Source: a virus
Strand: one strand, 5' to 3'
IMG/VR virus record: IMGVR_UViG_3300046171_000004
Coordinates: 1 to 40,879 of that record
Length of the DNA stretch: 40,879 bases
Shown piece by piece: positions 5,779 to 21,035 of this stretch. The first letter of the stretch is position 1, and each line of letters opens with the position of its first letter. Under the pieces are notes generated by a model, which had not been told where the DNA came from, ran no database searches, and was given only the letters and a program-made list of their open reading frames with translations. A program made the position numbers and the translations under genes.

Positions 5779-8700
5779 ATGGGAACAGGTTACACACGTA
5801 ACGATACAGCAAACAATATTGCTGACGGAAACATTATTAATGCGTCTGACCTTGACGGTGAGTTTGACGCAGTACAATCAGCGTTTAACAATTCATCAGG
5901 CCATACACACGATGGCACTGCAGGTGAGGGTGCGCCTATTGAAACGATTGGCCCTAGCCAAGACGTTGTAGCTACAGCTTCCGTACTACGCCCTAAGACT
6001 GACAATACAGTTGACCTTGGTACAACTTCCTTAGAGTATAAAGATCTCTTCCTTGATGGCACAGCCCATATAGATACTCTTGATGTTGACGAGAACGCAA
6101 GCATTACAGGTACGCTAGGTGTAACTGGTACAACGACTCTTGGTACAGCTAATATCACAACGGGTACTATCACAACTGCTGACATTAACGGTGGTAACAT
6201 TGATGGTACAATTATTGGTGCATCTTCTGCAGCAGCAATTACAGGTACAACTATTACAGGTACTAGCTTTGTAACCTCTGGTGATATGACCTTTGGTGAC
6301 AACGACAAGGCTGTGTTTGGCGCTGGCTCTGACCTACAGATTTATCATGATGGGTCGAATAGTTATATTGATGAAGCTGCGGCTGGCGATTTATATATTC
6401 GTGCTTTTGATAGACTGAAGCTAAACAACTACACTGATAACGCAGCTATGTTAAATGCTAAGTCTGGTGCAGAAGTTGAGTTGTATTACAATGGTGGGCT
6501 AAAACTCGCCACCACCAGCACAGGTGTAGACATCACTGGAAATGTTACATTCGCTGATAATGGTAAAGCCATCTTTGGTGCTGGGTCTGACCTACAGATT
6601 TATCATAATCCTACTGGCTCGCACAGTTATATTACAGAAAGCGGTGGCGGTAGCCTTTATATACAAGGTACAGAACTTAACTTAACAAATTCGGCAGGTA
6701 CTTCAACATATGCTAACTTTGTAGATGGCGGTGCTGCTTTTATTAGACACGCAGGTTCAACAAAACTCGCCACCACCAGCACAGGTGTAGACATCACTGG
6801 GACTTTGACCAGCGATGGGCTGACTGTTTCTCAAGAAAACCCTAAAATTACCATTACAGATACAGGCACTGGTGCTGACCATGAGCTTAATGGTGCTTCA
6901 AGTATTGGCAATCTTACATTAAACTTTGATAAAAATGATGACGGGTCTTCACCTTATTTCTATATTCAGCATGCTGGTAATAAGTTGGCTGCCTTTCGTA
7001 AGGGCGGCGACATCAGCTTCTACGAGGACACAGGCACCACTGCAAAGTTCTTCTGGGATGCGAGTGCGGAGAGCTTGGGGATTGGGACGAGTTCGATACA
7101 GTCTAATGTAAAAATGCAAATAGTAGGTGAAGATGGTTCTTCTGGTGCATCTGCCAACGTTGCTGCAAATGAACTGTTTGTGGACAACAACGGAAATGCA
7201 GGTGTTACAGTTGGCACATCCAACACTGGAGTGGGGTATTATGCCTTTGCTGATAGTGATGTGGCATTGCGAGGCGGCATCTTTTACAACCACACAGATG
7301 ATGCAATGGGTTTCCGTGTTTTATCCGAAGAAGCCATGCGCATCGACAGCAGCGGTCGGGTTGGAATTGGCCGAACACCAACTTCAAATTTGCTTGAGGT
7401 TGCGGACACAATAAAACTTACAAATTTAGGAACTGGCGAAGGTTTTATTGGATATAACACAAACGGCCAAAAACTTAGCATAACAGCAACAGATGCAGTT
7501 GGCGCAGGTATGAAGTTTGAGGTTGGTTCATCCGAAGCCATGCGCATCGACAGCAGCGGTAACTTGCTTGTGGGTAAGACGAGTGCAGATAACACCACGC
7601 AAGGCATACGTTTGTTGGGTTCAGCAGGCTTTGCATCTTTTGTGAGAGCAGAGGCTGAACCTATTGTTGTTAATCGTTTAACGGATGATGGCGATCTAAT
7701 TGAGTTCCGCAAAGACGGCGCACCTGTGGGGAGTATTGGGTCACTTGGTGGCGTTGCTTATATGAACTCTGGTGATGTTGGTTTTTCTCTTGATTGGGGC
7801 AGTGACCAAATAAAACCTCGTCAAGCTAATGGTGCTAATAGGGATGCTGCTATTGACTTAGGTGCTTCAGCTTCACGCTTCAAAGACCTCTACCTGTCTG
7901 GCACAGTAAACGCAGCTACCTTAAACGTAGATGGCGGCACGATTAAGCTGGATGGGAATTATCCTACTGGTACAAACAACGTGGCGTTGGGTAATGCTGC
8001 TCTTGATGATGGCTCTTTGAGTGGTGGTTATAATGTAGCTATTGGAGTAAATACTTTTACCAACAATACATCTGGGCAACTTGGAACTGCTGTTGGAAAT
8101 GATGCGCTTTTTGCAAACACCACAGGTAGCTATAACACAGGTGTAGGTGGTCAAAGCCTTGGTTTAAACACTACAGGTTCAAGTAACGTAGGCGTAGGGC
8201 GTCAGGCTCTATATAACAACACCACCGCCAGCGAAAACACAGCCGTTGGGTATCAGTCGCTTTATTCTAACCAAACAGGAGTAGAAAATTCCGCACTTGG
8301 CAGGGGGGCTTTGTATAATAACCTAAGCTCGTATAATACAAGTGTTGGTAGAAGCTCTATGTATAATAACACCACAGGCAATAGGAATGTTGCACTAGGT
8401 GTGCAAGCACTACTATCCAACACCACCGCCAGCAACAACACTGCGGTTGGGTATCAAGCTGCTCAAACCAATACTACAGGTTCTGCCCTTACGGCTATAG
8501 GTTATCAAGCCTTAGGAGCCAACACTACAGGCTCCAATAATACGGCAGTTGGGTATCAAGCTAACAGTAGTAACACAACAGGTATTTACAACGTATCACT
8601 GGGTTTACAAGCATTGTTGTATAATACAACAGGCGGTTCCAACACAGCACTAGGGTATCAGTCCCTACAGTCAAACAATGCTAGTCATAACGTGGCTGTT

Positions 8701-9474
8701 GGTCAGTTAGCGATGTTTACAAACACCACAGGCCAACAGAACACTGCCGTTGGCTCTTCCGCATTATACAGCAACACCACAGCTAATGGTCTAGTTGCTG
8801 TAGGTAGACGTGCCCTTGAAGGCAACACTACAGGCGCAAATAACAGTGCTCATGGTTATGAAGCATTAAAAGTTAATACTACAGGTGCAAATAACAGTGC
8901 TCATGGCTATGGCGCACTCCAAGCCAACACCACCGCAAGCAACAGCACCGCTGTTGGTTACAAAGCTCTTTACTCAAACACGACTACAACAGGTAACACA
9001 GCGATTGGTTATCAGGCACTGTTAAACAACACTGGGTCAAGCCGTCAGGTTGCTGTTGGTTATCGTGCAATGGAAAACGCAACAACAGCCCAAGAAAGTG
9101 TAGCTGTTGGATATGATGCTTTGCAGCAAGTCACATCAGGGCAGAACAACACTGCCATTGGATACAATTCCCTTGATGCTTTGACCACAAATTCAAACAA
9201 CACTGCGGTTGGCGCAAGCTCAGGAACATTAGTAACGGGCCAAGGAAACACGTTTATTGGTTCAAGTTCTGGTCATGAAATGACCTCTGGCAACAAAAAC
9301 ACCATCCTTGGACGCTACTCAGGCAACCAAGGCGGCGTGGACATCCGCACCGCAAGCAACAACATCATACTGTCGGATGGGGATGGTAATCCTTTCTACT
9401 GGGGCAGAGGTAGCGGAACGCACGTTTACAGTTCTGAAACAGGTGCGGCAACTGCCTTTTGTTTCTGCAATTAA
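5779..9474 (+). CDS. Tail fibre, main frame (lacks the chaperone, which is in +1 frame)
   Basis: A 1231-residue fibre with a Gly/Asn/Thr-rich composition. The N-terminus (GNIINASDLDGEFDAVQSAF) is of the kind that attaches marine podovirus fibres to the tail. Residues about 150-720 hold repeated modules such as IFGAGSDLQIYH and EAMRIDSSG with GIG. Residues about 730-1170 contain some 25 units of about 16 residues around NTAVGYQAL-NTTGSN, resembling the left-handed beta-roll of YadA-like adhesin heads. The frame ends at TAA 9472-9474 just where conserved sequence continues in the +1 frame (to 9937). The natural product is probably the joined protein of about 1386 residues. Confidence 0.75.
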   Translation: MGTGYTRNDTANNIADGNIINASDLDGEFDAVQSAFNNSSGHTHDGTAGEGAPIETIGPSQDVVATASVLRPKTDNTVDLGTTSLEYKDLFLDGTAHIDTLDVDENASITGTLGVTGTTTLGTANITTGTITTADINGGNIDGTIIGASSAAAITGTTITGTSFVTSGDMTFGDNDKAVFGAGSDLQIYHDGSNSYIDEAAAGDLYIRAFDRLKLNNYTDNAAMLNAKSGAEVELYYNGGLKLATTSTGVDITGNVTFADNGKAIFGAGSDLQIYHNPTGSHSYITESGGGSLYIQGTELNLTNSAGTSTYANFVDGGAAFIRHAGSTKLATTSTGVDITGTLTSDGLTVSQENPKITITDTGTGADHELNGASSIGNLTLNFDKNDDGSSPYFYIQHAGNKLAAFRKGGDISFYEDTGTTAKFFWDASAESLGIGTSSIQSNVKMQIVGEDGSSGASANVAANELFVDNNGNAGVTVGTSNTGVGYYAFADSDVALRGGIFYNHTDDAMGFRVLSEEAMRIDSSGRVGIGRTPTSNLLEVADTIKLTNLGTGEGFIGYNTNGQKLSITATDAVGAGMKFEVGSSEAMRIDSSGNLLVGKTSADNTTQGIRLLGSAGFASFVRAEAEPIVVNRLTDDGDLIEFRKDGAPVGSIGSLGGVAYMNSGDVGFSLDWGSDQIKPRQANGANRDAAIDLGASASRFKDLYLSGTVNAATLNVDGGTIKLDGNYPTGTNNVALGNAALDDGSLSGGYNVAIGVNTFTNNTSGQLGTAVGNDALFANTTGSYNTGVGGQSLGLNTTGSSNVGVGRQALYNNTTASENTAVGYQSLYSNQTGVENSALGRGALYNNLSSYNTSVGRSSMYNNTTGNRNVALGVQALLSNTTASNNTAVGYQAAQTNTTGSALTAIGYQALGANTTGSNNTAVGYQANSSNTTGIYNVSLGLQALLYNTTGGSNTALGYQSLQSNNASHNVAVGQLAMFTNTTGQQNTAVGSSALYSNTTANGLVAVGRRALEGNTTGANNSAHGYEALKVNTTGANNSAHGYGALQANTTASNSTAVGYKALYSNTTTTGNTAIGYQALLNNTGSSRQVAVGYRAMENATTAQESVAVGYDALQQVTSGQNNTAIGYNSLDALTTNSNNTAVGASSGTLVTGQGNTFIGSSSGHEMTSGNKNTILGRYSGNQGGVDIRTASNNIILSDGDGNPFYWGRGSGTHVYSSETGAATAFCFCN
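6501..6800 (+). repeat. 39-bp exact direct repeat inside tail fibre gene
   Basis: The same 39 bases occur at 6501-6539 and 6762-6800, in frame, encoding KLATTSTGVDITG. Near-identical flanking blocks (GSDLQIYH at about 6330 and 6590) show that a whole module was duplicated. A second pair of 27 identical bases, encoding EAMRIDSSG, lies at 7330-7356 and 7534-7560. Such near-identity at DNA level suggests recent duplication or shuffling. Confidence 0.8.
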
Positions 9475-9937
9475 CAGTACAAACACTAGCTCACAAATAT
9501 TTAGAGGGTCTAATTCAGCCAGTAATATAAATGACGTTGGCGCTGACCAGTTTGTTGTTTTTGGTACAGGAAACGTACAAAACACAAACAATAGTTACGG
9601 TGCTATATCCGATCAAAAGCTGAAAGAAAATATTATTGATGTTGGATCGCAATGGGATGACATAAAAGCAATTAGAGTACGCAAGTACAGTTTGATTGCA
9701 GATTCTGAGACAACAGCAAATCGCCTTGGCGTTATTGCACAAGAACTAGAAGCAAGTGGTATGTCTGGTCTTGTTGAAGAGCATATGGATCTAGGCCCGA
9801 ATGATGAAGATTTAGGGACAACAACTAAAGGAGTAAAGTATTCCGTTCTTTACATGAAAGCAGTCAAGGCACTGCAAGAGGCAATGGATCGCATTGAAAC
9901 ACTTGAAACTAAGGTTGCAACACTGGAAGGAAACTAA
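9458..9937 (+). CDS. S74-type intramolecular chaperone domain of tail fibre, +1 frame
   Basis: The continuous coding signal from about 9458 reads VSAINSTN..., then SDQKLKENI and, at the end, a coiled coil (ALQEAMDRIETLETKVATLE). This matches the C-terminal chaperone of endosialidase-type fibres (peptidase S74), which trimerises the fibre and then cuts itself off just before the Ser of SDxxLKxNI; the Ser and the Lys five residues later are the expected dyad. It is in the frame one base ahead of the fibre frame; GCC TTT T GTT (9454-9463) would join the two if one T of the four-T run is skipped or is a sequencing error. Frame is open upstream to about 9308. Confidence 0.75.
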   Translation, partial: FVSAINSTNTSSQIFRGSNSASNINDVGADQFVVFGTGNVQNTNNSYGAISDQKLKENIIDVGSQWDDIKAIRVRKYSLIADSETTANRLGVIAQELEASGMSGLVEEHMDLGPNDEDLGTTTKGVKYSVLYMKAVKALQEAMDRIETLETKVATLEGN

Positions 9938-10753: not shown

Positions 10754-11221
10754 ATGATAGAAGTATTAGCTTTAGCAGGTGCAGTTACTAAAATAGCTGG
10801 TGCAGTTAGTTCTGCAGTTAAAGCTGGTAGTGATATAGCAGACTTACTGCCTCACTTTGGTAAGCTTGCTAAATTAGAAGCTGACATAAGTATAGCTGAA
10901 CAAGGTAGACACAAAGGCCCATTAGGTAGACTTACCTCATCTGAAGAAGAAGGCTTTGCTATAGCCCAAGCTAAGATGAAACACAAGGAAGCACAGAACG
11001 AATTACGTGAAGTGTGTAGATTATACGGACCACCAGGAATGTGGGACTTAGTAGTTAAGGAACAAGCTGCAGCTAGAGTTAGACAGAAAGAAGCACTAGA
11101 GGCACAAGCTAAAGCTAGAGACAAATTATTCTGGGGCATATCACTAACAATAGGTGTGCTATTATTCTTAGGTGGTACAGGTGCAATGATCTGGGGTCTT
11201 AACGAAGTAGTGAATGGATAG
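10754..11221 (+). CDS. Protein with C-terminal membrane segment, 155 aa
   Basis: Begins with a small-residue hydrophobic stretch (LALAGAVTKIAGAVSSAVKAG), has a charged helical middle (about 40-120, rich in Lys, Glu, Ala), and ends in a clear membrane segment at about 128-148 (ISLTIGVLLFLGGTGAMIWG). Its place next to the previous membrane protein suggests a pair acting in lysis or in the virion. No catalytic motif. The last codons overlap a possible start of the next gene (ATG at 11214). Confidence 0.5.
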   Translation: MIEVLALAGAVTKIAGAVSSAVKAGSDIADLLPHFGKLAKLEADISIAEQGRHKGPLGRLTSSEEEGFAIAQAKMKHKEAQNELREVCRLYGPPGMWDLVVKEQAAARVRQKEALEAQAKARDKLFWGISLTIGVLLFLGGTGAMIWGLNEVVNG

Positions 11222-14200
11222 TATAAAAATGAAATTCAAAGGATTTAAACCACAAGCCATGCAGCGTATAGCTGGTACTCTAGGGTATCAGGGAGACATG
11301 TCTGGTTTTAACGATTATCTTAATCAAAATCCTGATAAAAAACAACAGATGAATATGTATCAACAAAAAGCTATGCAGATGTTACAAGGTGGTCTTGTTA
11401 AAATGCAAGAAGGTGGTCAGGTTCCTAATTTATACAATGCACCAAATTCTGCTTTAGGAACAGAAATAAAAGATAATACTGAATTAACATATCAACCTAC
11501 TCTTGCATCTCAACCAAATATGTTACGTACAGATAGTTTACCTACTACAGGTACATCTATTTCGGAGGGAGTAGCTGCGCTTGGAAAGGCAAGTGGTTTT
11601 TTGGGAGCAGAAAATCAAACAATACCTACTCCAAAAACTTCATCTATTGCTTCTACTATTAGTGACCCACGTTTAGATCAAACACAGTTGTTAACGGATA
11701 CAACTTTTGAAGTTGATCCAAAAGCTGATCTTAGAGGTGGGCCAATTAAACCTCTTACTACGGATTTAAGTAGTCTTTCTGTTGCTGATCAACCCAAAGA
11801 AACATTTGGTATATCCGCTACACCACCTGCACCTGATCCTGAAGTAGTAGCAAAAGAAAAAGCAAAAAGACGTAAACAATCCGATGAAGAGTACGCTGCA
11901 AAAATAGAAAAATTTGGACCTGTACAATTACCAAGTGCACCTGATCCAGTAACTGGAATAAGGGATTTTAAGTATAAAGGATTTGGTAATCCTGATGAAG
12001 CCTATCCTGTTCCTGTTAAAAGAAAACCTAACTACGATCCATCTACTATTAAAACAGATGCATATGGTCGTAAGGTAGCAAATATTATAAATGCAGATGG
12101 GACTATTGATACTAGTAATTTTATTAGTGTAGAATACGCAGATAAACTAGTAGATGAGGCATATGAAAAACAACTAGAAGATTATAATAAACTTAAAGAA
12201 ACATTAGGTGAAAACTTTACTAAAAAACAAGCGTATAATCTTAAACGGACAGAAAATTTAAAAGCAACAAAAGAAAAATATGCTAATTTAGATCCCGATT
12301 ATTTTGAATCTCAAGAATACTTTGAGTATTTAGAGTACGGACCTACAATAGGTGGTCAAGCTGTTACTTACTCACCTTATTTTGGTTTTGCTGGAAGTAC
12401 TGCTATTGGTGCTCACGATATGCAGTATGAAAAATATCTAGAAAGAACTGGTAAAACAGATATGTTAGCTGGGGGAAGTTCTTATGTAGAACCTTCTGAA
12501 GACAATCCTTGGGGGATGAAAAAACCTAGTAATAAAAGTATAGCAGAAAGTAATCCTACAATGACGCCAAATCAAGCTAATACTACTATTGCCGATATTA
12601 TGGCAGAAAGAGCACAAGCTCCTAGCTTACCTGCGGGTGCAACAGTACAACCTGTAGGAACTACAATAACATCTGATCAACTAATTGGGAGTACTACAGG
12701 TCAAGTAGGCGCTGCGCCAACAGTAAGCGGTGTAGCTACTGTAGATGCTGCAACTGCCGAAATGCCTGAAGGAATGGATGCAGCTTCTGTGACTGCAGTT
12801 ACTGCTGCACCAAAGGTTGGCGAAGCTTTAGCTGGAATACAAGATGTAACAGGAACAGTATCTCCTCAAGCACAAGTTGAAGCTGCTCAAGGAACTATAT
12901 CTCCTGATAGTTTAGCTAAAGCTGTAGGTGTAGATTCTAAATACATTCAAGAAGTGCAAGCAGGAACACGTACTGTATCTCAAAATGAAATTGCGAGTGC
13001 TGCTAAAGCACTAAACATTCCAATTGCTCAAGCACAAAAATTATTAAGTCCTGTAGTTACTGCTGATGCTGCTAAATTTAAAGACACTGCACCTCAAGTA
13101 ACTGCAGTTACAGACTACGACACTGGTAAAATGGGTGTCGCTGAAGGTACAGTTAAACCTAATGAAATAGTTAAGGCTCAAGGTGTAGGACTTACAGCAG
13201 AACAATCCAATGCAGCTACTAGTAACTATGAATCAACTTTAGAATCTGCACGAGGTAAAGTAGCAGAAGGTGAAACTATTACCTCCCAAGATTATTATAA
13301 TTTACCTGCTACAGACATTGCAAATATTCAAAAAACTGCAGTAGAAAAAGCAGCTAAAGCTTCTACTATACCTGAAGCAGGTGTGGCTACTAGCTCATAC
13401 AATTCTGCTGTTCAAGGTGCTAAAGGACGTGTTGGATCTAAAGAACTTGTTGATGCAGAAGCACAAGGATTACAAATTGGTCAAGCTGTAGAGGCCGTTG
13501 CTGCAATCTCTGGTGAACTAAATAAAGCAGCAACTGCTGTAGCACAACAAGGCACAATGTCACAGTATCTTGCTGAAGCTGCCTCTATAAACCAAACTGC
13601 AAAATCTACTGTACAAGGTCAGATGTCAGATCTTATGGAACAGTTTGCTAGTGGAACACCGACATGGGCTGCAGGAGCTATGAGGGCTGCTAATGCTGCT
13701 ATGTCTGCACGTGGACTAGGCGCAAGTAGTATTGCAAGTGCGGCTATTGTACAAGCCACTATGGAATCTGCATTACCTATTGCGCAAGCAGATGCTAAAA
13801 TGTTGTTTGAGGCGAATATAGCTAATGCTAACTTTAAACAACAAGTGTCTTTAGCTAATGCTGCAGCACAACAAAATATGGAGCTTGCTAATCTTAACAA
13901 TAGGCAGCAAACTGCTCTTGCTAATAGTACTAATGCTTTTACTTTACAAACTCAAAACTTATCTAATGAACAATCTGTAGTTTTAGCTAATGCTCAGTTT
14001 AAAGCTGCTGTCCAACAAAAGAACTTAGATGTAAAAACACAAACGTCATTAGTAAATGCTGCAAGATACGCTGAAGTAAATAATATTAATCTTAATAATG
14101 CGCAACAAGCTATTTTGCAAAGGTCTTCTGAAAACTTACAAGTTGATATGGCTAATTTGTCTAATCAACAACAGACTGCATTATCTAATTTACAAGTACA

Positions 14201-15809
14201 AGCATCTATTGCAGGACAAGAACTTACTAACGAACAGCAGATGGCTGTACTAACTTCATCACAAGCATTTGAAGCAGCAGAGTTTGAAGCTACAGTCAAA
14301 CAGCAAGCCTTTATGCAAGATGCACAGTCTCGTGCAGCACTTGAAGGTAAAGCTATGGACATTAGGCAACAAACTGCGTTGTTTAATGCAGCACGTGTTG
14401 CTGAAGTTAATGATATTAATCTTACAAATGAACAACAAGTTAGGTTACAAAAATCTACAGAATCTTTACAGATTGAAGTTACAAACTTGTCTAATCGTCA
14501 ACAGACTGCTCTTGCTAATGCACAAATACGTGCATCTTTGCAAGGTAAAGTACTTGACAACAAACAGCAAGCTGCTATAATTAATGCAGAGCGTTATGCA
14601 GAAGTTAATAACATTAATCTTTCTAATAAGCAACAAGCCTTTGTACAAGAGTATGCTGCTCGTACCGCTTTTGAAGGTCAGGCTATTAGTAATAGTCAAC
14701 AGGCTGCTATATTTAATGTGTCTAGTATTCTTGAAGAAAGACAAATTGAATTAAGTAACGAACAACAAACTAATCTCTTTAATGCAACTAACCGTATGAC
14801 AGTTGACATGACAGAGTTATCTAATAGACAACAAACAGCTATTGCTAATCTTCAAGTAGAGTCTACTTTACGTGGGCAAGAATTACAAAATGAACAACAA
14901 GTAGCTATTGTAAATGCAGAACGTTTTGCGGAAGCTAATAACTTGCAATACACTACTGAGCAGCAGATGACACTCGCTAACTCTCAGATGATGCAAACTA
15001 TTGGATTAGCAGAAATGTCTAGTGCTAACACTGCAGCACTTCAAAATGCCGCACAGTTAGCGGGTATGGACATGGCTAATCTTGACGCTAGACAACAAGC
15101 TGCTGTACAAAATGCTCAAGCGTTTTTAGGTATGGACATGGCTAATTTAACTAATCGCCAGCAAACTAATATGTTTAAAGCACAAGCTATGCAACAGGCT
15201 ATTCTATCAGATCAAGCTGTGGAAAATGCTGCTGCTCAATTTAATGCTACTAGTGAAAACCAAGTAAATCAATTTATGATAAACTTAGCTGCTCAAGTAT
15301 CACAGTTTAATACTACTCAGCAAAATGCAACTAAACAATTTAATGCTGGTGAAGCTAATGCAATTAATCAGTTTAATGCGCAAATACAAAATCAACGTGA
15401 TCAATTTAATGCATCTAACCAACTTGTAATTGCACAGAATAATGCAAACTGGCGTAGACAAGTAGCTACGGAAGATACTGCAGCCATCAATAGAGCAAAT
15501 GAAATTAACGCTGCGAATATGTTAGCTGTATCTAATACTGCATACGATAACTTATGGAACTACTACTCTGACACAATGGAATATGTGTGGACTAGTGCTG
15601 AAAGTGAACGTGAGCGTGTAGTAGATATTGCTATTGCTAATTTAAATAATGATGCTGCTGCTGATGCTGCAAGTGCTGCAAATGATTATAACTCTTCACT
15701 AGCTTTTGGTAATTTAATTGGTAGTTTATTCACAACTCCATTGTCTACTTTTGGTTCTAGTATTGGAGGATCTGCAGTTGGCGCAGCGTGGGATTGGCTA
15801 ACTGGTTAA
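11214..15809 (+). CDS. Giant repeat protein, probable internal virion/ejection protein
   Basis: About 1531 residues; ATG at 11214 overlaps the previous stop, with a second ATG at 11229 (MKFKGFKPQAMQ) equally possible. The N-terminal third is mixed and Pro-rich. Residues 872-1333 are 21 tandem 22-residue units of the type LSNRQQTALANAQ + 9 residues, followed by eight residues, then at 1342-1407 six 11-residue units starting QFNA or similar. An 11-residue period predicts a long hendecad helix. The C-terminus has Gly-rich, membrane-like character (FGNLIGSLFTTPLSTFGSSIGG). Size and position next to other large late proteins suggest an ejected internal protein. No lytic enzyme motif is seen. Confidence 0.65.
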   Translation: MDSIKMKFKGFKPQAMQRIAGTLGYQGDMSGFNDYLNQNPDKKQQMNMYQQKAMQMLQGGLVKMQEGGQVPNLYNAPNSALGTEIKDNTELTYQPTLASQPNMLRTDSLPTTGTSISEGVAALGKASGFLGAENQTIPTPKTSSIASTISDPRLDQTQLLTDTTFEVDPKADLRGGPIKPLTTDLSSLSVADQPKETFGISATPPAPDPEVVAKEKAKRRKQSDEEYAAKIEKFGPVQLPSAPDPVTGIRDFKYKGFGNPDEAYPVPVKRKPNYDPSTIKTDAYGRKVANIINADGTIDTSNFISVEYADKLVDEAYEKQLEDYNKLKETLGENFTKKQAYNLKRTENLKATKEKYANLDPDYFESQEYFEYLEYGPTIGGQAVTYSPYFGFAGSTAIGAHDMQYEKYLERTGKTDMLAGGSSYVEPSEDNPWGMKKPSNKSIAESNPTMTPNQANTTIADIMAERAQAPSLPAGATVQPVGTTITSDQLIGSTTGQVGAAPTVSGVATVDAATAEMPEGMDAASVTAVTAAPKVGEALAGIQDVTGTVSPQAQVEAAQGTISPDSLAKAVGVDSKYIQEVQAGTRTVSQNEIASAAKALNIPIAQAQKLLSPVVTADAAKFKDTAPQVTAVTDYDTGKMGVAEGTVKPNEIVKAQGVGLTAEQSNAATSNYESTLESARGKVAEGETITSQDYYNLPATDIANIQKTAVEKAAKASTIPEAGVATSSYNSAVQGAKGRVGSKELVDAEAQGLQIGQAVEAVAAISGELNKAATAVAQQGTMSQYLAEAASINQTAKSTVQGQMSDLMEQFASGTPTWAAGAMRAANAAMSARGLGASSIASAAIVQATMESALPIAQADAKMLFEANIANANFKQQVSLANAAAQQNMELANLNNRQQTALANSTNAFTLQTQNLSNEQSVVLANAQFKAAVQQKNLDVKTQTSLVNAARYAEVNNINLNNAQQAILQRSSENLQVDMANLSNQQQTALSNLQVQASIAGQELTNEQQMAVLTSSQAFEAAEFEATVKQQAFMQDAQSRAALEGKAMDIRQQTALFNAARVAEVNDINLTNEQQVRLQKSTESLQIEVTNLSNRQQTALANAQIRASLQGKVLDNKQQAAIINAERYAEVNNINLSNKQQAFVQEYAARTAFEGQAISNSQQAAIFNVSSILEERQIELSNEQQTNLFNATNRMTVDMTELSNRQQTAIANLQVESTLRGQELQNEQQVAIVNAERFAEANNLQYTTEQQMTLANSQMMQTIGLAEMSSANTAALQNAAQLAGMDMANLDARQQAAVQNAQAFLGMDMANLTNRQQTNMFKAQAMQQAILSDQAVENAAAQFNATSENQVNQFMINLAAQVSQFNTTQQNATKQFNAGEANAINQFNAQIQNQRDQFNASNQLVIAQNNANWRRQVATEDTAAINRANEINAANMLAVSNTAYDNLWNYYSDTMEYVWTSAESERERVVDIAIANLNNDAAADAASAANDYNSSLAFGNLIGSLFTTPLSTFGSSIGGSAVGAAWDWLTG
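13827..15434 (+). repeat. In-frame tandem 22-residue then 11-residue coding repeats
   Basis: Bases 13827-15212 encode 21 units of exactly 22 residues; every unit has a conserved QQ (or similar) at positions 5-6. Bases 15237-15434 encode six units of exactly 11 residues beginning QF. DNA copies have diverged, so selection seems to hold the protein period. Confidence 0.8.
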
Positions 15810-15821
15810 TGAGGAAGTAAC

Positions 15822-16034
15822 ATGTTTGATATTTTTGGAAAGGCATACAACAATATAAAAATGCCAGAAAGAAAAGAAGTAAATTCTTTAGATAAAGCAA
15901 AGGGTTTATTATCTCGTGATAGAAATACTATGCCTGATAATAACAATAATAACGAACCTATGGAACGTGTAGCAAGATACGTAGCCCAAATACGTGAAGA
16001 TAGAATGAGGATTAAAGATGATAGAAACGCCTGA
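15822..16034 (+). CDS. Hypothetical protein, 70 aa
   Basis: A small basic, Asn-rich protein (NNNNNEP in the middle) with a C-terminal Arg/Asp-rich helix (YVAQIREDRMRIKDDRNA). It begins after TGAGGAAGTAAC and overlaps the next gene by 17 bases. No known family recognised. It sits between two probable internal virion genes, so a virion or scaffold role is plausible. Confidence 0.55.
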   Translation: MFDIFGKAYNNIKMPERKEVNSLDKAKGLLSRDRNTMPDNNNNNEPMERVARYVAQIREDRMRIKDDRNA

Positions 16035-16530
16035 TATATCCTTTAACAGACCTACTCCTGGTATGGGTATGACTGCTGAATTAGGAAGTAGACCTTGGCA
16101 AAATCCTCCACAGTATAATACTGTCGAAGAAGCGTTAGACTTTTATTTACCTAAACTTACAGAAGAAAACTTTCATGATCAACTGCTTGACGTTATGGAG
16201 ATGGGTATACCTTTAACTACTATTGCTAATAGTATTCAATCTGCAGGTGTTATGGAAGGTAAACATACTATTGATGTAGGTATGCTTATTATGCCTGTAC
16301 TTATTGAGATGATGGCGTATATTGGTGACGATGCAGATATAGATTATAAAATGGGTACAGATATTGAAAAAGATCCTGATCGTATATCAAATACAAAGGT
16401 TGCTTTAGCTATGAAGAAAATGAAAGAACGTTTACCAGAAGAGCTAGATAAAGAAGATGAACCTGTAATAGACGAACCCGTAGAAAGTGTGGAAGCACAA
16501 CCTTCTGGACTTATGGCAAGGAGAGTATAA
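16018..16530 (+). CDS. Conserved-looking structural-module protein, 170 aa
   Basis: Starts MIETPDISFNRPTPGMGMTAELGSRPWQ..., and has a helical middle with a hydrophobic patch (TIDVGMLIMPVLIEMMAYIG, about 90-105). The opening PxPGMGMTxELGxRPW..P is a pattern I associate with marine phage late genes of unknown role. The acidic C-terminal part (EELDKEDEPVIDEPVESVE) is low complexity. It overlaps the upstream gene by 17 bases and abuts the next ATG. Probable virion-associated protein; function unknown. Confidence 0.6.
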   Translation: MIETPDISFNRPTPGMGMTAELGSRPWQNPPQYNTVEEALDFYLPKLTEENFHDQLLDVMEMGIPLTTIANSIQSAGVMEGKHTIDVGMLIMPVLIEMMAYIGDDADIDYKMGTDIEKDPDRISNTKVALAMKKMKERLPEELDKEDEPVIDEPVESVEAQPSGLMARRV

Positions 16531-17565
16531 ATGGCGTTTAATTTAGGTGGCTTTGCAGCAGGTGCAGCAACCGCTGTTACTACTCGCATAAGAGAAGAAG
16601 AAGACAGAATACAAAAACGTTTAGAAGAATCTAGGCGTGATGCAAGAGCATTACGTTTACGTAAAGAAGCGGAACGTGAAGCAGAAAAGAAAGCTACAGA
16701 AGAAGCTATTGGTGCTTTAACTTTTATGGGATACAATCCTGAAACTGCTCAATACATAGCAGGTCAGGGTAAAACTGCAGTATCTTTGGCTAGTGATGCT
16801 GGGCAACGTGCTATGCAGCGTGGTTTAGATATTAACACTATATATAATCTACCTGACGTAACCACAAGTTTAGATGTTGATGAAACAATTAACGGCACAG
16901 ATACTACAGATACTGTATTTGGGGGATTTGATCGTGAAGCATATCAAAAATTATATCAAGAACCAGACGAAATAAGCAATAGTTTTGGTGCTAGGCTTGC
17001 TGTATTGTCTCAGAAACAATTAAAAACTAATGATCCTGATAAGATTGCAGACTATGAAAGACAAAAAACAAAAATACTAAAAGATTTACGTGCTATGAAA
17101 GAGGCTGAAAGTATTAAGGACGGTGAAAAAGGTCCATCGTTTAGCTTAGGTACAATTCAATCTAACGTAAACTCTGCATTTAAAATGCAACTATCCTTGT
17201 TTGATTTAGGCATGGACATGGAAGGTAATATTATAGGTAAGATTGAAGGTAGAGAAGCACAAGCAGAAGTAGCTAGGTTACGTGCAGCAGACTATCTTGA
17301 GGGTACATATGGTTCACTAGAAGATGCTGTTATGAATGATGGTATTACTACTTTACGATCTCAAGCTGCGTCTAATCTAAAAAACTACAGAGATTCTGTA
17401 TTAGCAGCAGGTCCACTTAGCCCAGATTTAATTTTTAAAAATGAAAAAGATTTATTAAGTAAAATAAATACTTTAGACATTGGGCAAGTAGTTAGCATAC
17501 CTAATGTAGGAGAATTTGTATATACACAAATAGTTAATCCAATAACAGGGCTACCTTTTTATTAA
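16531..17565 (+). CDS. Coiled-coil internal virion protein candidate
   Basis: 344 residues. A short hydrophobic start (MAFNLGGFAAGAATAV) precedes a long, highly charged helix at about 17-65 (Arg/Glu/Lys-rich), then mixed sequence. It starts one base after the stop of the previous gene, and its TAA shares a base with the next ATG (TAATG), so these genes are coupled. The hydrophobic head and charged coiled coil suit a protein ejected into or attached to membranes, but there is no diagnostic motif. Confidence 0.55.
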   Translation: MAFNLGGFAAGAATAVTTRIREEEDRIQKRLEESRRDARALRLRKEAEREAEKKATEEAIGALTFMGYNPETAQYIAGQGKTAVSLASDAGQRAMQRGLDINTIYNLPDVTTSLDVDETINGTDTTDTVFGGFDREAYQKLYQEPDEISNSFGARLAVLSQKQLKTNDPDKIADYERQKTKILKDLRAMKEAESIKDGEKGPSFSLGTIQSNVNSAFKMQLSLFDLGMDMEGNIIGKIEGREAQAEVARLRAADYLEGTYGSLEDAVMNDGITTLRSQAASNLKNYRDSVLAAGPLSPDLIFKNEKDLLSKINTLDIGQVVSIPNVGEFVYTQIVNPITGLPFY

Positions 17566-20500
17566 TGGCTGACACACTTTCCCTTTTAGACTACGTAAAG
17601 TCTAGAGACAAGGACAGTGACGAAGAAGATACAGTAGTCACACCTTCTCTACCAACTCAACCTGCATCACAAGATGGTGCGGGTTCTATGTCGTTAAGTG
17701 ACTACGCTTCTAAACGTGATGGTGATACTACTGCAACTATGTTCCCTGAAGTAGAAGAAGAAGTAGATGAAGACCCTACACAAATAGACATGGCTACTTT
17801 TGGTATACCAAGCGCAGATGAAGATCCTGTACCTGAAGTAGAACCCTATGACCCATCCTTTAGGTCTGGTGCGGATCGTTTAGCTGAAGCAAAAGAATAC
17901 TCTGGTTATATTCTTGTTAAAGATGAGAGCGGTGAAGACGTTGGTAAACTTATTAGTGAAGCTACAGACGAAGAAATAGCTGCGTTTGGTAAAGTACTAG
18001 CAAAAGATATAAGATCTGGCGAGGGTACATATGCGGGTGAAGCTGATCCCGTTAGTAAAATAATTAGTACAGTACCTGATGGCGGTGCTTTAGGCACTAA
18101 AGTATTATTAAAATTAGCAAACTATATAAATATAGGCGGTGCTGCAGTAGCAGATGGCATAGAAGATACACTAGAAAAAATGTCCGATCAAAAAATAGCA
18201 GGTTATTTTGTAAATAAATTATATGAAGCTGCTTCTGTAGGTAGAAATGCTGACATATCTACCCCTAAAGAACTTACAGATTTAATAGTAAAAGGAACTT
18301 CTGGCGCACTAGAGTTTTCAGAAACTTTACCTGCTGTTGGCGCTCTTGGTAAATACATATCTGCTATTAAATCTTTACCTGACGTAGTAGCGGATGGTCT
18401 TGTAAAGAAAACTATAAAAGAAACTAAACAAAAAAAGATTGCGGAACGTTACAACGTAGGCGGTGCTCGTATTGCTACTATGGAAGCTGCAGAAGACGCA
18501 CGTATTGCCGCTGCTAAAGTTGCGGATGCAAACAAAGACATAGCACAAGAGCTTATCATTGCATTTGAAGATAAAGTAGGTAGGACTGTATCAAAAGAAG
18601 TTGATGGTGTAAAAACACTTGACTTTGATTTAGCACGTGAAGCTGGTGAAGACATTGCTCGTACAGTTACAGAACGTGATGGTGAACTGTTTGATCTAGC
18701 ATTAGGCGACGATGTAATCACAGATCCTATACTGCAGCCAGATAAGTTTAATGGTATTGTTGCTATTGCATCCGACCTTAAACGTAAAAACCCAGAGGCA
18801 TTTAATAATAATAAAACTATTATAGATAACTTATTTGAATTAACAGTTAATAAAGATCTTATTGGTGGGCAAGAACTGATAGACGATCTTAATAGATATG
18901 GCCTGTCTTTTGAAGACTATGTACTTACTGTAGCTAGTTCAGGATCTAAAGCTGGTAAAGTACTAAACCAACTATCACAGATAGCTCGTATTAAACCAGA
19001 CAATATCAAAGCAGATGCTAAACAAAAAGAATTACTAGAGCAACAAGGCAACATACGTAACAGTGTTATGCGTGTTGAAAATGTTCGTCGTGGATTACTT
19101 GTGTCGCAGATTGCTACTGCTGCCCGTAACCTTACATCAGGTGGTGTACGTGCTCCACTAGAAGGCTTAGGCAATGTAATGGACAATGCCCTATATGAGT
19201 TTAGCCAGCCTATTGGTAAAGGCACTGGTGGCTTCTTAGGTGCAGGTAAACAAATAGTATCTGGTGAGAACTGGAAAGATAGTTTCAGACACATGAAGTA
19301 TATGTTTGATCGTCCTGATGTAGCTAAGGCATACACTGATTTAGTTCTTGAACAACCACAGTTGGAATCACAGTACAACAGAATGTTCAACAACCTTAAT
19401 GAAATACAAGAGCTAACAGGTAGAGGCAAAGGTGGTGCAGTGGACAATGTACTCAGTGGTCTTGAAGATGTAACTGATGTACTAAACACACCTAACCGTT
19501 GGCAGGAATACCTTATTCGTAGGGGTGCTTTCTTTGGTGAGCTTGAGCGTTTAACTAAACGTGAGTACAAGATAGATCTTATTGATGCGTTACAAGACGG
19601 TAAGCTAAACGACTTGTTAAATGATGCAAGCTCTGTAAAGCCAGAGGGTGCTAGGTCTTTTGTAAATATTGTAGATGATGCTGTAACAAAGTCATTAGAT
19701 ATTACATATGCAAAACAACCAGACATACCTGTGTTTCGTAGTACATCACAGTTTATAACACGGAACGGTTTAACAGTTGTAATGCCCTTCCCACGTTTTA
19801 TGTTTAATAGCATGGAGCTCATGGGTCAGTATGCAGGTGGTGCGTCAATACCATTGACAAAGAAGATGACAGAGCTTGTTACTCTTGGTAAATACAAAGC
19901 ACCAATTACAGCTAAAGACAGACAACGCATATCACGTAATCTTGTAGGTATGGCTGCTGTTGGTGCTGCTTATCAATACCGCACAAGTGAAGAAGCACCT
20001 GCGGAGTTTAATCAGGTTAGTGTATCAGATGAAACACAAGCAGACACACTGCCATTGTATCCTGTACCACAGTATCTGTATCTTGGTGAAGCAACTAAAC
20101 GTTTAGAAGATGGAACATTCAATGATTGGTTTGATGCCAAAGAGTTTGTGGAAACATTCGCTGGTACTAATCTACGTACAGGCACAAGCAATGCAATCCT
20201 AGAGGAAGTGTCTGCCTTTGCTGATGCTACTGACCTCACTAAAGGTGAGGCTATGGGGCGTTTAGCAGGTCGTACATTAGGCAATTACTTAGGTACATGG
20301 GCTGTACCCTTCGCACAGGTAATAGAGGCACAGAGGGCTGCAGGAGTACGTGGACTAACGTATAAAGATGCTGCAGAAGATCCTACCTTAGACTTCATGG
20401 GTACATTTAAACGTGAGCTTGTACGTCCTATGGCACAACGTGGTGTTCTTACTACGCCAGAGGAAGAGGCAGAGTTACCTGAACGTTCATTCTTGTTTGC

Positions 20501-21035
20501 GGAAGACACTACAAAGAAACGTGTAATGCCACTGGCTAGATTTGGTTTGGGTCTAAACCTTAGTGAGAAAGACAATGAAGCTGGTGAGTACCTAGCTAAG
20601 ATGGGCTTTAAAGATTATAAACTTGGCAGTACATCTAAAGTACCTAGTATCAAACGGTTTGAGAATAAACTACTGGGTGATCTAGTACCTACTGTAGTTG
20701 AAGCAATGCAGGGTGTTGAAGAGTACTACCGTAATGACTATGCTAAACAATCAGATAAGTTTAAAGAAAAAGTAAAAGAAGAAAAGTATGTTAATACTAA
20801 TTTAAAACCTTTAATAAAAACTGAGTTTACAGCTATAAAGACTGCGTTACGTGAGGGCAGTATTAAAGAGGGTGACGAATACACAAGAGCAATTGTTAGG
20901 TATCGTAACCTGCGCCCTGACTTACGTAAGATGGCAACGTTAGATTTTTATAAATACTTTCCTGATGAGAAACTAAATGTTCTAAACACAGATCACATAA
21001 ACAAACTAATAGGAATAGCAGAAGCTAGAAAATAA
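17565..21035 (+). CDS. Large internal virion/ejection protein, 1156 aa
   Basis: The last gene of the late block. The N-terminal ~100 residues are acidic and low complexity with a repeated LLDYVKSRD / LSDYASKRD motif at about 6-14 and 44-52; the rest is helical with amphipathic stretches (for example ARNLTSGGVRAPLEGLGNVM, and MFNSMELMGQYAGGASIPL). I see no lysozyme or transglycosylase active site. Size, position at the end of the virion block and helical character fit a large ejected protein similar in role to T7 gp15/gp16. It is followed directly by the convergent terminator. Confidence 0.6.
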   Translation: MADTLSLLDYVKSRDKDSDEEDTVVTPSLPTQPASQDGAGSMSLSDYASKRDGDTTATMFPEVEEEVDEDPTQIDMATFGIPSADEDPVPEVEPYDPSFRSGADRLAEAKEYSGYILVKDESGEDVGKLISEATDEEIAAFGKVLAKDIRSGEGTYAGEADPVSKIISTVPDGGALGTKVLLKLANYINIGGAAVADGIEDTLEKMSDQKIAGYFVNKLYEAASVGRNADISTPKELTDLIVKGTSGALEFSETLPAVGALGKYISAIKSLPDVVADGLVKKTIKETKQKKIAERYNVGGARIATMEAAEDARIAAAKVADANKDIAQELIIAFEDKVGRTVSKEVDGVKTLDFDLAREAGEDIARTVTERDGELFDLALGDDVITDPILQPDKFNGIVAIASDLKRKNPEAFNNNKTIIDNLFELTVNKDLIGGQELIDDLNRYGLSFEDYVLTVASSGSKAGKVLNQLSQIARIKPDNIKADAKQKELLEQQGNIRNSVMRVENVRRGLLVSQIATAARNLTSGGVRAPLEGLGNVMDNALYEFSQPIGKGTGGFLGAGKQIVSGENWKDSFRHMKYMFDRPDVAKAYTDLVLEQPQLESQYNRMFNNLNEIQELTGRGKGGAVDNVLSGLEDVTDVLNTPNRWQEYLIRRGAFFGELERLTKREYKIDLIDALQDGKLNDLLNDASSVKPEGARSFVNIVDDAVTKSLDITYAKQPDIPVFRSTSQFITRNGLTVVMPFPRFMFNSMELMGQYAGGASIPLTKKMTELVTLGKYKAPITAKDRQRISRNLVGMAAVGAAYQYRTSEEAPAEFNQVSVSDETQADTLPLYPVPQYLYLGEATKRLEDGTFNDWFDAKEFVETFAGTNLRTGTSNAILEEVSAFADATDLTKGEAMGRLAGRTLGNYLGTWAVPFAQVIEAQRAAGVRGLTYKDAAEDPTLDFMGTFKRELVRPMAQRGVLTTPEEEAELPERSFLFAEDTTKKRVMPLARFGLGLNLSEKDNEAGEYLAKMGFKDYKLGSTSKVPSIKRFENKLLGDLVPTVVEAMQGVEEYYRNDYAKQSDKFKEKVKEEKYVNTNLKPLIKTEFTAIKTALREGSIKEGDEYTRAIVRYRNLRPDLRKMATLDFYKYFPDEKLNVLNTDHINKLIGIAEARK

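Follow-up and report, generated by a model that had tools for sequence, protein, structure and literature searches.

Whole-unit length variation in two repeat modules of a candidate ejection protein from an HMO-2011-type podophage

The gene at the head of a four-gene cassette in an HMO-2011-type podophage encodes a protein with two helix-rich modules that evolve by whole units, of 22 residues in the first module and of 11 in the second. The protein is probably packed in the capsid and helps DNA across the cell envelope. A more specific reading, which we hold with about even confidence, makes it an internal virion (ejection) protein in which the 22-residue repeats (22-mers) form a spacer solenoid and the 11-residue repeats (11-mers) a channel helix. 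The window analyzed here is the whole of a 40,879-base IMG/VR virus record. The record is a marine, short-tailed phage of the HMO-2011 type, and its nearest deposited phages are the HMO-2011-type podophages CRP-345, CRP-1 and their relatives. Phages of this type have been described as one of the most abundant groups of marine viruses (PMC9038755). The gene, its parts and the downstream genes are listed in Table 1.

Table 1. Positions of the repeat protein gene, its parts and the following cassette genes in the window
Feature	Position	Strand	Description
Whole gene	11214..15809	+	1531 aa; homolog of HMO-2011 ORF25 (phage1322_25) and CRP-1 gp35
N-terminal domain	11226..11423	+	~66 residues (FKGFKPQAMQRIAGTLGYQGDMSGF...); 78 loci including the window; absent from Pfam
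Linker	11424..13658	+	Long, low-complexity, containing A/T/P; weak HTH-like stretch inside, residues 546-606
Head motif	13659..13799	+	Conserved PxWAxGAxR...RGLGxSS...ESALPIAQxDA, residues 816-862; anchor preceding the repeats
22-residue repeats	13827..15212	+	21 units, residues 872-1333; consensus LSNxQQTALxNAQxxAxVxxxN; 110-residue super-repeat
11-residue repeats	15213..15446	+	Seven units, QFNA type, residues 1334-1411; Asn+Gln 41%
C-terminal region	15447..15806	+	Conserved; WRR..AT..TAA.NR.NE.NA, W.SAE.ER.R, FGNLIGSLF tail
Cassette gene 2	16018..16530	+	170 aa; one hydrophobic stretch, residues 85-103
Cassette gene 3	16531..17565	+	344 aa (315-928 aa in relatives); gp15-like by position only
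Cassette gene 4	17565..21035	+	1156 aa (817-1893 aa in relatives)

The 22-mers ran without gaps through 21 units, exactly where a preliminary description of this DNA had placed them, and the exact period over 462 residues (872-1333) that it had reported was borne out. Identity at lag 22 was 0.278 versus 0.10 in shuffled sequences (z 14), lag 11 gave z 5 against shuffles, and the strongest lag was 110, equal to five 22-mers (identity 0.352, z 17). The reported switch from 22 to 11 also held, as splitting the sequences at the junction in 168 homologs marked a true boundary, with a module of 22-residue units on one side and a module of 11-residue units on the other. The QFN 11-mers were confirmed as well, with the count revised from six to seven by the family junction and the end placed near residue 1411. 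Both arrays of the window protein were free of Pro and Cys, and Asn plus Gln made up 28-41% across them, with the upper value in the 11-mer part. Tandem Repeats Finder detected no array in the DNA of the gene; at that level, therefore, the repeats are old.

Homologs were found in hundreds of viral contigs as well as in phages of Roseobacter, SAR116, Pelagibacter, Sinorhizobium, Rhizobium, Pseudoalteromonas, Vibrio and Aeromonas. They are known mostly as 'hypothetical protein', and the repeat family is new to Pfam, NCBIfam and PHROGs, where no model describes the HMO-2011 ORF25-like family. The ctYwJ313 homolog (L019:8356-10947) is named 'huntingtin' in GenBank, an evident misannotation from the Gln-rich sequence. 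All homologs share one order: the head motif ending in LPIA, the 22-mers, the QFNA 11-mers and WRR. HMO-2011 ORF25, CRP-1 gp35 and Vibrio phage CHOED gp13 are true homologs that share the head motif, 22-mers, QFNA 11-mers, WRR and downstream gene order, but the number of 22-residue units differs. Most relatives have 6 and CHOED gp13 has 2, compared with 21 in the window and up to 26 at loci L001-L005. The C-terminal region is replaced or extended in some relatives. In the CRP-3 homolog (L027:8641-10497) a Peptidase_S74 chaperone domain takes the place of the usual tail, and the HMO-2011 homolog (L018:17359-19476) carries a different C-terminal module (CWVAREVYG...), present in 17 loci and giving no Pfam match.

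Lengths were measured in 168 homologs, the window included, between two profile anchors that both lie outside the repeats, the I of LPIA and the W of WRR. Sixteen different I-to-W distances occurred, the shortest 117 and the longest 667 residues, and all of them were 7 mod 11. The 22-mer part was 13 mod 22 in 167 of the 168 homologs and the 11-mer part was 5 mod 11 in every one, corresponding to 1, 2, 3, 4, 6, 7, 9, 14, 16, 19, 21 or 26 units of 22 and to 6, 7, 9, 10, 11 or 18 units of 11. The single exception (L233) had a 22-mer part shorter by exactly 11 residues, and the hendecad phase ran unbroken across the junction of the two modules in all 168. Recombination between tandem repeats by itself yields length steps of whole units; the quantization thus proves the unit and not the fold. 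The lack of any other indel among the 168 sequences nevertheless points to a strict structural register.

Periodicity analysis did not support a hendecad coiled coil for the 22-mers. Their hydrophobicity showed no excess at 3.67 (11/3) residues (permutation p 0.53); the peak lay at 2.75 residues, with the 11/4 harmonic dominant (p 0.016). In the 11-mer part, 40% of the hydrophobic power fell at 11/3 (p 0.12), and the term hendecad, originally applied to both parts, may be apt for this one only. An apolipoprotein-like membrane-binding helix, with each 22-mer made of two 11-mers, was rejected because the 22-mers have no 11/3 amphipathic face. Among 572 units, position 2 of the 22-mer was occupied by Ser, Thr, Asp or Asn in 92.7%, and 76 of the 161 Gly residues in the 22-mers were concentrated at position 20. 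Helices are capped at their start by Ser, Thr, Asp and Asn, and such a cap would recur once per 22 residues. The QFN 11-mers also have a small polar residue following a hydrophobic one every 11 residues, without a helix break. A capping role is impossible for the polar residue there, which means that the preference at position 2 of the 22-mer may have a different cause.

Structure prediction gave helix-forming sequence throughout, as anticipated, but with a different arrangement in the two modules. In a single-chain AlphaFold2 model of the window protein, built from a nine-sequence alignment and with a pTM of only 0.43, each 22-mer formed a 16-residue helix and a 6-residue turn (pLDDT mostly 70-88, residues ~921-1241), and the 11-mers lay inside one continuous helix (1347-1460). 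For a short relative (L029, 40 sequences), the model contained a 104-residue helix over the 11-mers and beyond, with pLDDT mostly 61-81, and the 22-mer part appeared as long, low-confidence helices. Sequence and profile searches of the PDB returned chance matches only. Among natural proteins of solved structure, Foldseek found none like either model; its top match was a designed protein, and in a viral library it gave only weak matches beyond close homologs. These included tape measure proteins of siphophages, which are likewise length-variable helical repeat proteins; the matches were not significant (E 0.05 and worse), and the relatives here are short-tailed, with no tail tube to measure.

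The preliminary description had suggested that the 22-mers and 11-mers could form a helix of about 80 nm. As a model, this becomes one straight hendecad helix whose oligomers span the envelope as a rod or tube, at least once ejected. Several observations agree with such a rod. Neither part contains Pro (across the family, the 22-mer part had no Pro and no Cys in 12,314 non-redundant residues), the hendecad phase passes through every junction, the 11-residue deletion in L233 keeps that phase, and long helices appear in the short-form model. The Asn plus Gln content also recalls the amide-lined, partly hendecad tube of phiX174 H. However, the 22-mers lack the 11/3 periodicity and are dominated by the 11/4 harmonic, and both the cap signatures and the modeled turns recur every 22 residues. 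The arithmetic behind 80 nm requires the entire stretch to be a single helix. We consider the full-length rod doubtful. For the 22-mer part we weigh a helix-turn solenoid about twice as heavily as a rod, and this part is probably not a straight 80-nm rod.

The variation in length also bears on the suggestion that the helix is long enough to cross the envelope, which does not hold as a principle of design. Most relatives carry 1 to 6 units, which span 117-227 residues and would measure 18-34 nm as a complete helix, and some reach 26 units and 100 nm. Unit number shows no link to the thickness of the envelope, and a purpose of crossing it does not account for a spread of 18 to 100 nm. With 6 units in most relatives and 21 in the window, the length is not tuned to the envelope. 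A different proposal treats the 22-mer array as a two-state spring, a compact solenoid of capped helices in the capsid and portal that becomes a continuous hendecad helix after ejection, with repeat number setting the reach of a DNA conduit. Such a spring would explain helix-cap signals alongside zero proline and an unbroken 11-residue phase, and we nevertheless regard it as improbable. The natural series of 1 to 26 units in otherwise similar phages offers a way to relate repeat number to DNA delivery, capsid size and host envelope.

A conduit for genome delivery, proposed at first for the whole repeat region, remains plausible solely for the 11-mers together with the C-terminal sequence that continues them, some 104-114 residues of helix in the models; by analogy with phiX174 H this is the better candidate. 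The 22-mers give the proposal no support. The H tube (PDB 4JPP) is a proline-free helix with hendecads, and amide side chains line its lumen (PMC7354561). Asn plus Gln amounts to 26% in H versus 28% here. H has no sequence similarity to the window protein, and its three hendecads are followed by heptads; it is an oligomeric tube, whereas the models here are single chains. Every homolog has the 11-mer helix, whereas the other module varies from 1 to 26 units, which suggests an essential role for that helix. In the 22-mer part, the 11-residue loss in L233 fits a continuous helix better than a solenoid.

The genomic context agrees with the earlier designation of a probable ejected virion protein. 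The gene heads a clustered block that ends in a very large gene, as in T7-type ejection cassettes, and the order and sizes of the cassette resemble those of podophage ejection genes (PMC8954989). The gene was followed by proteins of ~120-240 aa, 250-1100 aa and at least 700 aa in 63 of the 73 loci with enough sequence; the other 10 had one or two additional ORFs in the cassette. In HTVC033P, the counterpart of the fourth gene (L025:11715-15893) matched LPD38 (polyvalent proteins) with E 1e-23, and LPD38 was not detected in 11 relatives. LPD38 occurs in proteins for which packaging and injection have been argued (PMC5512222). We found no virion proteomics for any homolog. The likeness to T7 gp14, gp15 and gp16 lies in gene order, the size pattern of the ejection cassette and helix-rich proteins (PMC8954989). 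A profile comparison covering gp14 (the deposited record) and gp15 of these three detected no similarity to the family. In addition, gp14 has predicted transmembrane helices, whereas a hydropathy scan predicted no membrane segment in the 1531-aa protein.

The same context bears on two other assignments. The first is a trimeric coiled-coil stalk that serves as an external fiber or tail appendage and is not ejected. The CRP-3 homolog does end in Peptidase_S74, a chaperone domain of trimeric tail fibers, and the ORF order puts the gene downstream of the tail-fiber and lysis genes. Yet S74 occurred only in CRP-3 among eight homologs scanned against Pfam, a separate fiber gene lies upstream, and the gene always adjoins the large ejection-like genes, which makes a fiber quite improbable. 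The second is a non-structural or assembly protein, such as a scaffold that leaves before packaging. An alpha-helical, Ala/Gln-rich protein of no known family could be of this kind, but its gene is the first of a late cassette that lies far from the coat gene, and its long C-terminal motifs are conserved family-wide. We judge this assignment very unlikely.

For the preferred ejection protein, the models suggest that each 22-mer folds as a short capped helix and turn, together making a slender, weakly held alpha-solenoid, and that a single unbroken, amide-rich helix runs through the 11-mers into the beginning of the C-terminal region. The protein would be packed in the capsid and, as a chain easily unfolded and refolded, would pass out through the portal before the DNA. 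The universal 11-mer helix may then associate with its own copies or with partners as part of an envelope channel. The variable 22-mer solenoid would serve as spacer or filler, its length set by repeat gain and loss and not by envelope thickness.

Two minor observations concern other parts of the window. Residues 546-606 of the repeat protein (window 12849-13031), inside a presumed virion protein, weakly resemble an HTH (HTH_3, E 0.09; phrog_4583, E 0.004), and neither match was used. The stretch is present in 8 loci, including the window. Upstream, positions 5779-9474 hold a tail spike or fiber gene with many 'NTAVGYQ' repeats. It is overlapped by an ORF (9308-9937) whose SDQKLKENI looks Peptidase_S74-like by eye, possibly reflecting a split or frameshifted fiber gene.
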